A DNA stretch of 46,834 nt from Myxococcales bacterium (GTDB lineage: Bacteria > Myxococcota_A > Polyangia > Fen-1088): the NCBI GenBank assembly GCA_003158735.1, contig PMLB01000306.1:1422-48255 (forward strand), given 5' to 3'. Below are positions 16,452 to 30,059 of this stretch, piece after piece. The stretch's first letter is position 1. Every line of letters starts with the position of its first letter. The position numbers and the translations under genes were made by a program. Under the pieces are notes generated by a model. It was not told the origin of the DNA, did no database searches, and worked only from the letters and a program-made list of their open reading frames with translations.

Positions 16452-17147
16452 ATGGGTGCCGAGATTGCCTTCCGCCTCAACTTGGTGCACGGCCGGTGCG
16501 TGGGTGTTCGCATACCAAGTGAGGTGGACGAGAAGGTCTTGGCAGAGTTGGTTCCCGAGGAACGCAGCTTCTTGTCAACCCTGGCTTCCGGCCGTCACCC
16601 AAGCTGGGTCGCCGGCCGGCTCGCCCTGCGCGAGGCATTTCGTGACCTCGGTATCGAGCCCGGCCCCATCCTCGTCACCCGGCGCGGAGCACCGGCACTG
16701 CCGTGCGACCTGGTCGGCTCCATCAGCCACAAGCGCACGCTGGCGGTCGGGCTGGCGGCCCGTCGCGAGAACGGCGCCCGCATCGGCGTGGACCTGGAAA
16801 CCCGCCCGCCCGCCTTCGCTTCGGCGCAGGAGGCCCAGGTCCACCAGGACGTACGCGCGCGTGTGCTCACCCCGGACGAGCTGGCTCGGCTTGAGCGCGT
16901 GCCCGAGGAGCACCGCCGGCGCACGGTCATCCTGCACTTCTCGCTCAAGGAGGCTCTGTACAAGGCCATCGATCCGCTGGTGGGCCGGCACGTGGCGTTT
17001 CACGAGGCCAGCATGTCCCCGTTGCCCGACGGCTCTGCATCCGTCGTGCTGGCCCTGTCCGAAAACGATGGCTGCTTCGCCGTCACCGCCTTCTGGACCG
17101 AGGTCGAGGATCACTTCCTCACCACGGCCCGCGTACTGCGAACCTAG
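16452..17147 (+). CDS. 4'-phosphopantetheinyl transferase superfamily protein
   Basis: GSISHKRTLAVGLA, IGVDLETR, FSLKEALYKAI. Confidence 0.85.
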   Translation: MGAEIAFRLNLVHGRCVGVRIPSEVDEKVLAELVPEERSFLSTLASGRHPSWVAGRLALREAFRDLGIEPGPILVTRRGAPALPCDLVGSISHKRTLAVGLAARRENGARIGVDLETRPPAFASAQEAQVHQDVRARVLTPDELARLERVPEEHRRRTVILHFSLKEALYKAIDPLVGRHVAFHEASMSPLPDGSASVVLALSENDGCFAVTAFWTEVEDHFLTTARVLRT

Positions 17148-17244
17148 CAGCCACTCCGGGGAATCGAAGTTAGCTATTCCCCCTGCGGGGGCTTCGGGAC
17201 GGACAACCCACCCCACCTCGCCCCGCGCGCTTCGCGCGCCCTCG

Positions 17245-17362
17245 TCACCACAGAGGTCACAGAGGCCACAGAGCCGGACCGGAAAGGGAAGGGTTGGGTT
17301 CTGTCCGATCCGAACCCATTCTTCCCTTCCGACCTCTGTGTTCTCTGTGCTCTCTGTGGTGA
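17245..17362. mobile_element. MITE-like 118-bp near-palindrome with GxxExxY-element termini
   Basis: Left end TCACCACAGAGGTCACAGAGGCCACAGAG; reverse complement of the right end TCACCACAGAGAGCACAGAGAACACAGAG; the inner arms are also near-complementary (CGGAAAGGGAAGGGTTGGGTT / AACCCATTCTTCCCTTCCG). Confidence 0.75.
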
Positions 17363-17376
17363 AAAAGCTAGCCTGA

Positions 17377-18189
17377 TCACCGAAGCACGCGGAACTGGGC
17401 TCGAAACTGCTTCCAGTCGAGGTCGATAGGCCTTGGCTTGCCGGGCCAGTTCGCCGACGCCTGTTCGGATAGCTGCACGCGCTCGTCGAAGCCTGGGTGA
17501 GTGCTGATGTACTGGAGCACCGCCGGGTCTTCGTCCTTGTCTCCCCGAATCCGTCGCAGGGCGTCCGCCAGCGCCTTGGGATCGATGTCCGAGGCAGCCA
17601 GCACGCGCAAGGCTTCTTCGTCGGCGGCCAGCTCCTGCTGCCGGCTGAAACCGCTGCTCACCAGCCGGTGCATCAGGCGTCCAGTGACGCCATCTCCGCG
17701 ACCACCCCCGACCATGGCAAACAGCGCAGCCAGGCCCAGTTCGCGCTTCAGGACTTGCATGGGATCCCGGTGTATCGCATGCGCGATCTCGTGCGCCAGG
17801 ATCGCGGCCAGTTCCTCGGGTGACTCCAGCCTGCGCAGGAGGCCCGAGTACACCAAGATGATGTTCCCTGGCAAGCACACGGCATTCACTGTGCTCGAAT
17901 CGATGAGGTAACTCTCGATGGGATAGGAAAGCGCGCCCAGCGCCGGGCTGAGACGATCCTGGACCTTGCGCAGGCCTGCTTTGACCGCAGCCTCGTCGTT
18001 GGCGTCGGCGATCACTTCTCGACGCAACAGTTCCCGCAGCTTCCCCTCGGTCCGATGCATGAGGGAAGTCTCGTCCTGCGCGAGGCTGTGGGTCTTCGAT
18101 GCCGGCCACAGTCGCCACACGCCGTAGACGGCCAAGCCGACCCCGGCATAGAGCGCGAGCAGAAGGAGAACTTCCCGCAAGATTCGCAT
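17377..18189 (-). CDS. M48-family zinc metalloprotease
   Basis: LAAILAHEIAHAIHRD (HExxH); N-terminal TM MRILREVLLLLALYAGVGLAVYGV; EELAADEEALRVL. Confidence 0.9.
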   Translation of the reverse strand: MRILREVLLLLALYAGVGLAVYGVWRLWPASKTHSLAQDETSLMHRTEGKLRELLRREVIADANDEAAVKAGLRKVQDRLSPALGALSYPIESYLIDSSTVNAVCLPGNIILVYSGLLRRLESPEELAAILAHEIAHAIHRDPMQVLKRELGLAALFAMVGGGRGDGVTGRLMHRLVSSGFSRQQELAADEEALRVLAASDIDPKALADALRRIRGDKDEDPAVLQYISTHPGFDERVQLSEQASANWPGKPRPIDLDWKQFRAQFRVLR

Positions 18190-18190
18190 T

Positions 18191-18691
18191 TCAGAAACCC
18201 GCGGGAGGAAGATTGCGGTGCGCCGGGCTGCCGTCGAGCGCGATGGCATGGGGGCCGTAGTAGCGTGCATAGGCCCAGCGCCCGAATACCAAGAAGTAGT
18301 GAACGCGTCCCTTGGCCGCCAAGACACAAGCGTAGATGCTCGACGCCAGATACATCAAGTTGGTCACCACCGCGAACCCCACGTAGGGCCAGAAGAAGCG
18401 CGGCAGGTCGCGATTCAGGATCAGCACGTAGTCGATGAACATGCCGACGCCGATCATGTTGATCAGCGTGGTCGGGATTTGCGAGGTGCAGGCCTGAAAG
18501 CAATGAAAGGCCACGAAGCGGTTCTTCTTGCGATTAATGAGAAAGTAGACCCACGCTGCAATCAGGTTCAACGACGGGATGGGAAGGCCCGCGCCCCAGG
18601 CCGCGAAGTTCATCAAGTACGCGGCCAGGGCGTCGTCCTTTTCTCGTTGCGACAGTTCGTGAGGCTGGGGAAGGGCGATGGTTTCCGTCAC
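18191..18691 (-). CDS. DUF4870-like integral membrane protein
   Basis: Polytopic; WVYFLINRKKNRFVAFHCFQA resembles the DUF4870 signature. Confidence 0.6.
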   Translation of the reverse strand: MTETIALPQPHELSQREKDDALAAYLMNFAAWGAGLPIPSLNLIAAWVYFLINRKKNRFVAFHCFQACTSQIPTTLINMIGVGMFIDYVLILNRDLPRFFWPYVGFAVVTNLMYLASSIYACVLAAKGRVHYFLVFGRWAYARYYGPHAIALDGSPAHRNLPPAGF

Positions 18692-26863: not shown

Positions 26864-26962
26864 TCAGAAATCGAAATTCACGTTCGCGTCAGCTGGCGTG
26901 GCTCCGATCACATGGAAGCCTTGCCGACGCAGATATCCCAGCGGGTTCAAAGGGAGCGCCAC
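26864..26962 (-). CDS. Possible 32-aa micro-ORF overlapping the recA stop (TAGTG), or gene remnant
   Basis: Translation [32 protein letters not shown]; not in the supplied ORF track because it is short. Confidence 0.25.
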   Translation of the reverse strand: MALPLNPLGYLRRQGFHVIGATPADANVNFDF

Positions 26963-28032
26963 TACGCCGCTACGGTGTCCGCGCTAGTAGCCGGCGCACT
27001 TGTAGGCGCCGCGCCCAAACGCGCATTCTCGGCTTTGCGTTGTTCGACCAGCTTCTCTCGCAATTCATCGACCAGGGCCGGGTGCTCGGCCATGTATTGG
27101 CAGGCCTTGTCGCGGCCCTGGGCAATGCGCTCGCCCTGCCATGAATAGTAGGCGCCAGATTTTTCCAGTAGGCCGGCTTCGCTGGCCAGGTCGACGATCT
27201 CGCCCACGGAGTTCACGCCGCTGCCGTAGAGGATCTCGAACTCGCACTCGCGGAAGGGCGGCGCCACCTTGTTCTTCACCACCTTGACCCGCGCCTTGTT
27301 GCCGACGATCTGCTCACCGTTCTTGACCACGCCGATCTTGCGGATGTCCAGCCGCACGCTGGCGTAGAATTTCAGCGCGTTGCCACCGGTGGTGGTTTCG
27401 GGATTGCCGTAGACCACGCCAATCTTTTGACGAAGCTGATTGATGAAGACCACGCAGGTCGCGTTGCGCGAGGTGGCGGCGGTCAGCTTGCGCAAGGCCT
27501 GGCTCATCAGGCGCGCCTGCAAACCCATATGCGCATCGCCCATCTCGCCTTCAATCTCGGCTTTGGGCACCAGAGCCGCCACTGAATCGACGACGATCAT
27601 GTCGATGGCGCCGGTGCCCACCAGTTTGTCGGCGATTTCCAGGGCCTGCTCGCCATTGTCGGGCTGGGACACCAGTAAGTCCTCGATGCGCACGCCCAGC
27701 TTGCGGGCATAGGTCACGTCCAGGGCGTGCTCGGCGTCGATGAAGGCGCAAATGCCGCCTGCCTTCTGCGCCTGCGCGATAGCGTGCAGGGTTAGCGTGG
27801 TCTTGCCCGACGACTCGGGACCGAAGACCTCCACCACGCGACCGCGCGGCAATCCGCCAACGCCCAGGGCCAGATCGAGCCCCACCGAGCCGGTGGGAAT
27901 CACGGGGATGTCGCTGGTATCGGCGCCCCCGAGGGACATGATGGCGCCCTTGCCAAATTGCTTTTCAATCGCAGAGAGAGCGGAAGACAGGGCTTTGAAC
28001 TTCTCTTTCAGTTGTTCCTTGATGGTAGCCAT
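26962..28032 (-). CDS. recA: Recombinase RecA
   Basis: [79 protein letters not shown]. Confidence 0.98.
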
Positions 28033-28050
28033 GGGTCATCTCCTTTTTGG

Positions 28051-28464
28051 TTAGCTGTTTTTCACCACAGAGAGCACAGAGGACACAGAGAGGGATTGAA
28101 AAGGTCGGAAGCGGCGCACGCCTTGCCTCAAGGTTGCGCCGTTGAAATTGATGAGAAGTCCGAGGGGAAGTCCGGAGAGGCGCAGGTACGAGAGGATTTG
28201 CGCTTGGTGAATCGGCAACAGTTGCTCAACTGCCTTGAGTTCCACGATCACCTGCTCATCCACCACCAGGTCCAAGCGATACGCGCAATCGATGGGCACT
28301 TCCTTGTAAACGATGGGTAGAGGCTTCTGTCTCTCGACCACATGCCCCTGGGCGATCAGCTCGCACTCGAGGCACGTCTCGTATGCGGATTCCAGCATCC
28401 CCGGCCCGAGGTACTTGTGCACCTCAATCGCAGCGCCGATGATCGACCTCGAGATCCCATTCAC
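28051..28464 (-). CDS. GxxExxY protein (PDDEXK-like nuclease fold); upstream GTG at 28527 is an alternative start
   Basis: VNGISRSIIGAAIEVHKYLGPGMLESAYETCLECEL (GMLESAY), then YRLDLVVDEQVIVELKAVEQL (D...ExK). GTG preceded by GGAGGGGAAGG. Confidence 0.9.
   Translation of the reverse strand: MNGISRSIIGAAIEVHKYLGPGMLESAYETCLECELIAQGHVVERQKPLPIVYKEVPIDCAYRLDLVVDEQVIVELKAVEQLLPIHQAQILSYLRLSGLPLGLLINFNGATLRQGVRRFRPFQSLSVSSVLSVVKNS
28062..28090 (+). repeat. Terminal inverted repeat (recA-proximal)
   Basis: TCACCACAGAGAGCACAGAGGACACAGAG; internal CACAGAG repeats at 9-bp spacing. Confidence 0.9.
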
Positions 28465-28479
28465 CCCTTCCCCTCCGAC

Positions 28480-28508
28480 CTCTGTGTCCTCTGTGCTCTC
28501 TGTGGTGA
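28480..28508 (-). repeat. Terminal inverted repeat (comM-proximal)
   Basis: CTCTGTGTCCTCTGTGCTCTCTGTGGTGA, exact reverse complement of 28062-28090. Confidence 0.9.
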
Positions 28509-28523
28509 AACAGCATTCTTCCC

Positions 28524-30059
28524 TCACGACGTCACCTCCCGATCGAGAAATCTGTATTGCAATGCCTCGGCCAGATGCGGCCCGCGCACATTGGGCGACC
28601 CGTCGAGATCTGCGATCGTGCGCCCGAGGCGCCGCACGCGTTCTATAGAACGAGCCGAGAGAGCCAGCCGCTCCACCGCGCGTTCCATGATGCGATGGCC
28701 GTCGCTGTCCAGTTTGGCCGCGCTCTGCAATTCCTTGCATGAAAGCCGGGCATTGCAGCGGACGCCGCGCTCGATCTGTCGCGCGCGCACGAGCTCAACC
28801 CGCGCGCGCACTGTTTCACTGGTTTCGCCGGTTTCGCTGCTGGCCAGTTCACGATACGAAATGGCGGGCACTTCGACGTGCATGTCGATGCGGTCCAGCA
28901 GCGGCCCGGACAGCTTGGCCCGGTAGCTACTGATGGCCAACTGCGAACACGTGCAGGTCCGCAATGGATTTCCATAGTGGCCACAGGGACAGGGGTTCAG
29001 GGCCGAGACCAGCATGAAGTCCGCGGGAAAGGTGACTGTGCGGCGGGCGCGTACCACGGCGATCGCGCGCTCCTCCAGCGGCTGGCGCAAAGCCTCCAGG
29101 GCGTGCCGGCCGAATTCCAGCAGCTCGTCGAGAAACAACACCCCGTTGTGGGCCAGCGAGATTTCCCCCGGCCGCACCATGGGCCCGCCACCCACCAGGC
29201 CGGCCACACTGACCGTGTGGTGGGGCGCGCGAAAGGGCCGCTCCGTGACGAGCGATCGGCCAGCCAACATTCCTGCCACCGAATAGATCATGGTGGTTTC
29301 GAGCGATTCGTCGAACGACAGGGTGGGCAGGATTCCCGGCAGCCGCCGGGCCAGCATGGTCTTGCCTGATCCGGGCGGCCCAATGAAGAGCAGGTTGTGC
29401 CCGCCCGCCGCCGCAATCTCCAAGGCGCGGCGGGCGACTTCCTGCCCGCGCACCTCGCCGAGGTCAGCCGTGGCAGTGGGCGAGTGCCGGACCGGCAGCG
29501 CGGTGACGGTGGCCGCCCGCTGCCCGTGCAGGACATCCAGCAAGTCGCTCAGGTGGCCCACCGGCACGACATCGCAGCCCCCCACCGCAGCGGCCTCGGC
29601 CGCATTGTCGCGAGGCACGAACAACCGTTGCACGGCCCGGGCTCGCGCATAGGCCGCCATGGGCAACACACCCTTGACCGGTCGCACGCTGCCATCAAGG
29701 GCCAGCTCACCTACAAACAGCCCATTGTCGAAGCTCTCGGGCGGCAAGAATCCCGCGCCCGAAAGAATGCCCATGGCGATGGGCACATCGAAGGCGGCAC
29801 CGTCCTTGCGCAGATCGGCCGGTGCCAGGTTGACCGTGATCCGACGCAGAGGGAACTTGAACCCACTGTTTTCCAGCGCGCCGCGGATGCGCACACTGCC
29901 TTCTTTCACGCCCGCATCAGGCAGGCCGACGATGTTGCAACCGGGCAGGCCCTGCGACACGTCCACCTCGACGTTGATGGGCGCGGCCTCAATGCCGATG
30001 ACCGTGGCGGAAAGTACGCGAGCCAGCACGCCGCTTGCCCAAAGCGAGAACGGTGCCAC
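28524..30059 (-). CDS. comM: ComM/YifB-family Mg-chelatase-like AAA ATPase (start possibly GTG at 30029)
   Basis: IEVDVSQGLPGCNIVGLPDAGVKE-like N-terminus, FIGPPGSGKTMLARRLPGILP, FRAPHHTVSVAGLVGGG, NPCPCGHYG. Confidence 0.93.
   Translation of the reverse strand: MAPFSLWASGVLARVLSATVIGIEAAPINVEVDVSQGLPGCNIVGLPDAGVKEGSVRIRGALENSGFKFPLRRITVNLAPADLRKDGAAFDVPIAMGILSGAGFLPPESFDNGLFVGELALDGSVRPVKGVLPMAAYARARAVQRLFVPRDNAAEAAAVGGCDVVPVGHLSDLLDVLHGQRAATVTALPVRHSPTATADLGEVRGQEVARRALEIAAAGGHNLLFIGPPGSGKTMLARRLPGILPTLSFDESLETTMIYSVAGMLAGRSLVTERPFRAPHHTVSVAGLVGGGPMVRPGEISLAHNGVLFLDELLEFGRHALEALRQPLEERAIAVVRARRTVTFPADFMLVSALNPCPCGHYGNPLRTCTCSQLAISSYRAKLSGPLLDRIDMHVEVPAISYRELASSETGETSETVRARVELVRARQIERGVRCNARLSCKELQSAAKLDSDGHRIMERAVERLALSARSIERVRRLGRTIADLDGSPNVRGPHLAEALQYRFLDREVTS

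Follow-up and report, generated by a model that had tools for sequence, protein, structure and literature searches.

A family of dispersed CACAGAG hairpins and its probable partner, a single GxxExxY gene, in a Myxococcales genome

REP sequences and their RAYT partners (TnpA-REP, 'REPtron') comprise many short extragenic palindromes and one cognate gene, usually present in a single copy and flanked by the same palindromes (PMC8266576). RAYT is a single-copy domesticated transposase linked to many palindromes, the dissemination route of which is unresolved; it is rarely found on plasmids, and the abundance of REP correlates with the gene (PMC8266576). A comparable arrangement is described here for a Myxococcales draft genome. 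The window, which is the whole stretch of 46,834 nucleotides that was analysed, contains a 118-bp hairpin and, at another place, a gene of the GxxExxY family between arms of the same kind. As in REP/RAYT, many palindromes go together with a single-copy gene that they flank, the gene is rare on plasmids, and the abundance of the palindromes is linked to it. The gene is also vertically inherited and the repeats are extragenic, as in a REPtron. However, GxxExxY has a predicted PD-(D/E)XK fold, whereas RAYT is an HUH (Y1) transposase. Furthermore, the arms consist of three tandem 9-nt units, the length of the elements is greater (about 118-150 bp), and the hairpin ends are composed of RYTAGCT, a linker and CACC instead of the GTAG/CGTC foot of REP. 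Having another enzyme and another palindrome foot, the CACAGAG system lies outside the REP/RAYT family, which is, by analogy of organisation, its closest working analogue. The units also resemble MITEs, being short, non-coding and high in copy number, with terminal inverted repeats that match a coding element and with presence/absence polymorphism. Unlike in MITEs, the partner is not a recognised transposase, and within the clade it is present once and stays in place.

The hairpin core (17245..17362, 118 bp) is built as arm, inner stem and arm. It folds as one imperfect hairpin, both as RNA (-74 kcal/mol, z -8.3) and as DNA (z -8.25), and no shuffled sequence equals it, in agreement with the long hairpin of the original prediction. 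The left arm (17249..17273, plus strand) carries three CACAGAG heptamers at 17249, 17258 and 17267 with 2-nt spacers, and the right arm (17334..17358, minus strand) carries three at 17334, 17343 and 17352. Each arm thus reads TCAC followed by CACAGAG-NN-CACAGAG-NN-CACAGAG, with a heptamer period of 9 nt. The true ends lie outside CACC and are formed by an inverted RYTAGCT and a short T/A-rich linker, represented here by GTTAGCT on the left (17169..17175, plus strand) and AGCTAGC on the right (17366..17372, minus strand). When the 5-25 nt beyond the arms are read from outside to inside, GTTAGC occurs 26 times and GCTAAC never, which identifies RYTAGCT as a terminal motif in inverted, not direct, orientation. 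The whole unit consequently exceeds 118 bp, and the limits first assigned to it were too narrow.

The interval between the left outer motif and the left arm is occupied by another dispersed palindromic repeat, unrelated to the hairpin and about 65 bp long (17179..17244), which reads GGGGGCTTCGGGACGGACA...GCGCGCTTCGCGCGCCCTCG. Similar blocks adjoin hairpins at three other loci (L005, L017, L031), and one stands alone in the sister genome G005 (L229, about 2700-2840). The hairpin is placed between two convergent open reading frames. The left one (16452..17147, plus strand) is phosphopantetheinyl-transferase-like by sequence and has orthologues in G001, G002, G004, G005 and G006; the right one (17377..18327, minus strand) is M48-peptidase-like by sequence, with orthologues in G001, G002 and G004 and a partial one in G005. 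No Rfam family matches above its gathering score anywhere in the window.

The GxxExxY cassette, presumably the autonomous or source unit, extends over 28050..28515 and is ordered as GTTAGCT, linker, three heptamers, gene and three further heptamers. The gene itself (28051..28464, minus strand) has 137 codons from an inferred GTG start; its last ~19 codons run through an arm, and its stop codon TAA lies within the outer AGCTAAC. The neighbours are two open reading frames on the minus strand, which we take to be recA downstream (26962..28032, with a RecA-type N-terminus in syntenic relatives) and a comM/Mg-chelatase-like gene upstream (28524..30059, with a C-terminus conserved in relatives). The cassette has the same heptamer arms as the 118-bp hairpin, just as had been noticed for both 29-bp ends of the latter, which are present as described, and the element at 28 kb. 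The host genome has one GxxExxY gene, and in a sample of 68 units no other coding sequence is enclosed by paired arms. The 118-bp unit had moreover been read as a non-autonomous copy generated from this element. Dispersed non-coding copies with cassette-matching ends bear out the first part of that reading. An origin of this copy by internal deletion finds little support: the inward resemblance to the GxxExxY 5' end is weak, its score being equalled or exceeded by 26 of 1000 dinucleotide shuffles, and the 3' side shows no such homology.

The encoded protein is a clear member of the families TIGR04256 (147.9 bits against a cut-off of 35, E 1.4e-43) and PF13366 PDDEXK_3 (145.6 bits against 22, E 1e-42). 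Its residues H16, E25, D65, E75xK77, Q89 and Y93 are conserved in the GxxExxY alignment; among 27 sequences from many phyla, D65 and K77 are invariant and E75 is kept in at least 90%. We take the series H16...E25...D65...E75xK77...Q89...Y93 to be a RecB/Cas4-like PD-(D/E)XK pattern. The AF2 model is confident (pLDDT 92), and viral structure models annotated as PD-(D/E)XK match it well. Matches to PDB structures are weak (best E 0.11), and the recognisable nucleases among the best of them (Hjc, Bax1, ACE1 and a Cas4-family protein) are all PD-(D/E)XK enzymes. Sequence and model together place the catalytic D and ExK on an alpha/beta core, as in the PD-(D/E)XK superfamily, and GxxExxY is thus a small predicted nuclease of the RecB/Cas4 type. 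It shares the fold core and the H...E...D...ExK...QxxxY residues with RecB/Cas4-type nucleases and Hjc, and shows weak Cas4 and Hjc similarity. It differs from them as a lone protein of 120-140 aa, for which a sequence search among solved structures finds no close relative. A defence-system label was discarded, as PADLOC gives marginal Cas4 similarity only. A phage or plasmid origin was also set aside: phages yield no sequence match to GxxExxY, and plasmids yield eight records, several of which adjoin housekeeping genes. Among the open-licence literature searched, no relevant paper on GxxExxY or the repeat strings was found; TIGR04256/PF13366 appears there solely as annotation, and a link of the family to repeats is absent.

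In the host genome (G000, a 6.5 Mb draft, 82% complete), the dyad pattern CACAGAGNNCACAGAG of CACAGAG matches 667 times, against none for the reversed-pattern control. With about four dyad matches per unit, this amounts to roughly 165 units, and the possibility that only the window copy exists is thereby removed. By chance, 0.03 matches would be expected in the window; it contains eight, of which four lie in the hairpin and the other four surround the GxxExxY gene. The arms are simple and purine-rich, which might make the shared CACAGAG a coincidence of low-complexity sequence. Both of these comparisons speak against such a coincidence, as do the displaced-flank controls and the permutation test given below, and it can be practically dismissed. 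Forty scored genomic copies are 90-100% identical to the 118-bp unit over essentially its full length. The 68 units extracted for anatomy comprise a main type of ~118 bp, a subfamily of ~109 bp that has a distinct outer sequence, and mosaics that combine the interiors and outer ends of the two. Longer conserved flanks (GATCCGGAGT ... AAATCCGGGGC...CCTGCGGG) surround the units of the ~109-bp subfamily at L046, L062, L067, L087, L090, L097 and others. Additionally, 8 of the 68 copies continue past the outer motif with a 33-nt extension, CTAGCCAGCATCKCRTGGACCGTGGATCGAAGTTAGCT (loci including L014, L018, L073, L195 and L234).

The third heptamer, which was not used for selecting the copies, is conserved over 64 of them. 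By contrast, the spacers are variable and free of covariation that would restore pairing, and the inner spacer pairs in a single copy of the 64; perfect arm pairing maintained by covariation is thus ruled out. As the heptamers are kept, the third included, and the spacers vary without covariation, it is suggested that the heptamers themselves are recognised, rather than stem formation alone.

Of 61 units that could be evaluated with a simple, home-made gene caller based on codon usage, 55 are intergenic, and the arms frequently start 9-20 bp from a stop codon. Copies between convergent genes are enriched (27/55 intergenic copies against a background of 57/293, p 1e-5), whereas those between divergent genes are depleted (2/55 against 53/293, p 0.004). 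Such a distribution would be expected if the hairpins were retained chiefly because they terminate transcription or stabilise mRNA 3' ends. However, no U-run follows the stem on either strand of the window copy, where GGTGAAAAA and GGTGACGAGG are found instead of the tract of an intrinsic terminator. The hairpin is also missing from orthologous sites, and its identity with the GxxExxY arms and the match in spelling described below would be left unexplained. A terminator role as the main explanation is hence very improbable. Direct repeats outside the RYTAGCT ends do not exceed shuffled pairings in the 13 testable copies; the target-site duplications that a MITE would be expected to show are thus without excess.

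Insertion polymorphism was assessed in related genomes, which are draft MAGs with some contamination. At the window site, the hairpin lies between the same two convergent genes in G000 and G004; in G001 and in G005, the latter of which shares ~90% identity with G000 over this region, these genes nearly abut. The junctions are too diverged there to be placed exactly. G006 and G002 have other sequence at this site, in which degraded look-alikes of the 33-nt extension may have been left behind by an excised copy. A clean filled/empty pair is provided by locus A, which reads ..GGACGGACGTAGCATGG.. in the empty G000 and ..GGACGGACGTAG[TTAGCTTTTTCACCGCAGAG...AGCTAACTTC...GGATAGG]ATGG.. in the filled G004. 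Its left junction is exact, and the comparison implies that the insertion started directly after a stop codon; a 3-bp TAG is possible at both junctions. Locus A is the only position-polymorphic site with an exact junction; at two more sites, the unit that is present differs from species to species. Therefore, the copies are not always confined to one conserved locus, and presence/absence polymorphism with clean empty sites, as known from MITEs, is found at locus A and the window site. The empty sites also imply that particular copies are dispensable. The orthologous hairpin of G004 (L235, about 2520-2640) carries a foreign repeat-like insert in its stem, CTACTAGGATGCGGAATCTTCGCGGGCC...GGCCGTGGCCGTGGCC, which is also present at L190 in G003.

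A close association of gene and repeat is evident within the family of the host. Among its 18 sampled genomes, all 10 with GxxExxY contain 9-667 CACAGAG dyads and all 8 without it contain 0-1 (Fisher 2e-5). The gene is located between comM-like and recA throughout the genus and in a sister genus (L107, L109, L114, L117, L131-L135), and its position remains fixed in the clade while the repeat positions differ between species; G010a, which had been read in the wrong frame, is left out of this comparison. The alleles of G005 and G002 occupy the same comM-recA site but share only 57-58% identity with the G000 allele, compared with 71-85% for other sister alleles. Their arms differ from those of G000 as well and read GAGAACACAGAGGGGAGAG, a string counted 53 times in G005 and 12 times in G002, against 2 in G000, 1 in G001, 1 in G003, 6 in G004 and 3 in G006.

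Probably, the genome's one GxxExxY protein is the cognate enzyme of a repeat family that spreads in trans by a REP/RAYT-like logic, and the 118-bp unit belongs to this family as a non-autonomous member. GxxExxY would bind the tandem heptamers and recognise or cut the paired arms, possibly when these are extruded as a hairpin or cruciform. The hairpins would thereby be spread or copied in trans into intergenic sites, often beside stop codons, and the host would complete the repair. Alternatively, gene and hairpins could now form a host system in which GxxExxY, acting at the hairpins, serves recombination, repair or the maintenance of the chromosome, the copies spreading mainly by gene conversion. 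A single-copy vertical gene adjoining recA and comM in the clade would fit such a role, as would its near absence from plasmids and phages, the location of repeats at gene 3' ends and the mosaics of the two subfamilies. On the other hand, GxxExxY has different gene neighbours in other clades, its presence is patchy between related genera, and the empty sites indicate dispensable copies. We therefore regard a host system of this kind as unlikely.

The association extends well beyond the Myxococcota. Forty-six relatives of the window protein were taken with their flanks, and 54 non-redundant loci were compared with 204 displaced controls. Inverted repeats flank GxxExxY in 40 of the 54 loci (above the 99th percentile of the controls), 38 of which lie above the control maximum; they are typically situated 5-60 bp from the matched coding region. 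About a quarter of the loci have no clear inverted repeat. Four of six loci from plasmid records have such flanks. Across phyla, the arms are made of tandem units of ~9 nt, spelled CACAGAG, CGCAAAG, CACGGAG, CACGAAG or AACAGAG.

The agreement between the spelling of the arms and that of the dispersed repeats was evaluated by counting four dyad patterns in 13 genomes, which were selected according to how the arms of one of their GxxExxY loci are spelled. These counts refer to dyads and not to verified complete units, although the listed places pair into hairpins of ~90-130 bp in several genomes. For instance, the CACAGAG/CGCAAAG/CACGGAG/CACGAA counts are 0/0/0/49 in G069 (CACGAAG), 6/38/0/4 in G100 (CGCAAAG), 3/2/29/6 in G105 (CACGGAG) and 96/1/3/4 in G097 (CACAGAG). 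In 12 of the 13, no other pattern outnumbers the genome's own spelling; the mean own share is 71%, and the observed match is reached in none of 100,000 permutations (p about 1e-5). As several of the 13 genomes have extra GxxExxY genes, the label from one locus is a simplification. The exception is G104 (Acidobacteriales), which contains 64 CGCAAAG dyads, while its two detected GxxExxY genes are armed with CACGGAG and CACGAAG; the CGCAAAG-armed gene predicted for it is absent among these two loci. In G104, the matching gene may have been lost or may be missing from the assembly; otherwise, G104 would be a counterexample.

Association and spelling match recur in Myxococcota, Planctomycetes, Verrucomicrobia, Gammaproteobacteria and Acidobacteria. 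This breadth bears on the idea that another transposase recognises the arms and that the GxxExxY cassette is a passenger moved by it. Lone PD-(D/E)XK nucleases are not known as transposases, which lends this idea some appeal. Nevertheless, the breadth just described speaks against it, GxxExxY is the sole coding occupant between arms in the sample, and the gene stays in place while the repeats scatter; such a role appears quite unlikely. For the preferred reading, in which GxxExxY itself would sustain the repeats, action in trans as first proposed is indirectly but strongly supported by the co-occurrence of gene and repeat and by the match in spelling. Counted against GxxExxY as the mobiliser are the lack of an excess of target-site duplications in 13 copies, G104, and the roughly one quarter of loci without a clear repeat.

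More generally, we lean towards GxxExxY proteins being mobilisers of interspersed palindromic repeats across bacteria, built of tandem 9-nt units (CACAGAG, CACGGAG, CGCAAAG, CACGAAG, ACGCAGATT and others), each protein recognising its own spelling. If so, this would be a mobile-repeat system that is defined by a lone RecB/Cas4-like nuclease and stands apart from all known transposase classes. The gene and its matching repeats point to an undescribed REP/RAYT-like mobile repeat system, no description of which was met among open-licence papers. This would offer a possible function for a widespread protein family so far named after a motif, and a possible origin for the short iterated repeats of many environmental genomes. 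Beside REP/RAYT, it would be a second and enzymatically unrelated case of a single-copy, vertically kept gene sustaining tiny palindromes, which would allow the persistence of such pairs to be tested. Moreover, the matched spellings constitute a ready specificity code for binding assays.

In 'Ca. Thiosymbion' (G098), the GxxExxY arms consist of ACGCAGATT, CACGGAT and CGCAAAT units (L210, L220, L226), so iterated intergenic repeats of those units may belong to the same class. The surroundings of the gene vary among bacteria. GxxExxY precedes a trpG/pabA-like gene in three Gammaproteobacteria (L142, L145, L155), lies between fabD and fabG in a Sphingomonas (L250) and follows radA in a Bacteroides (L247).
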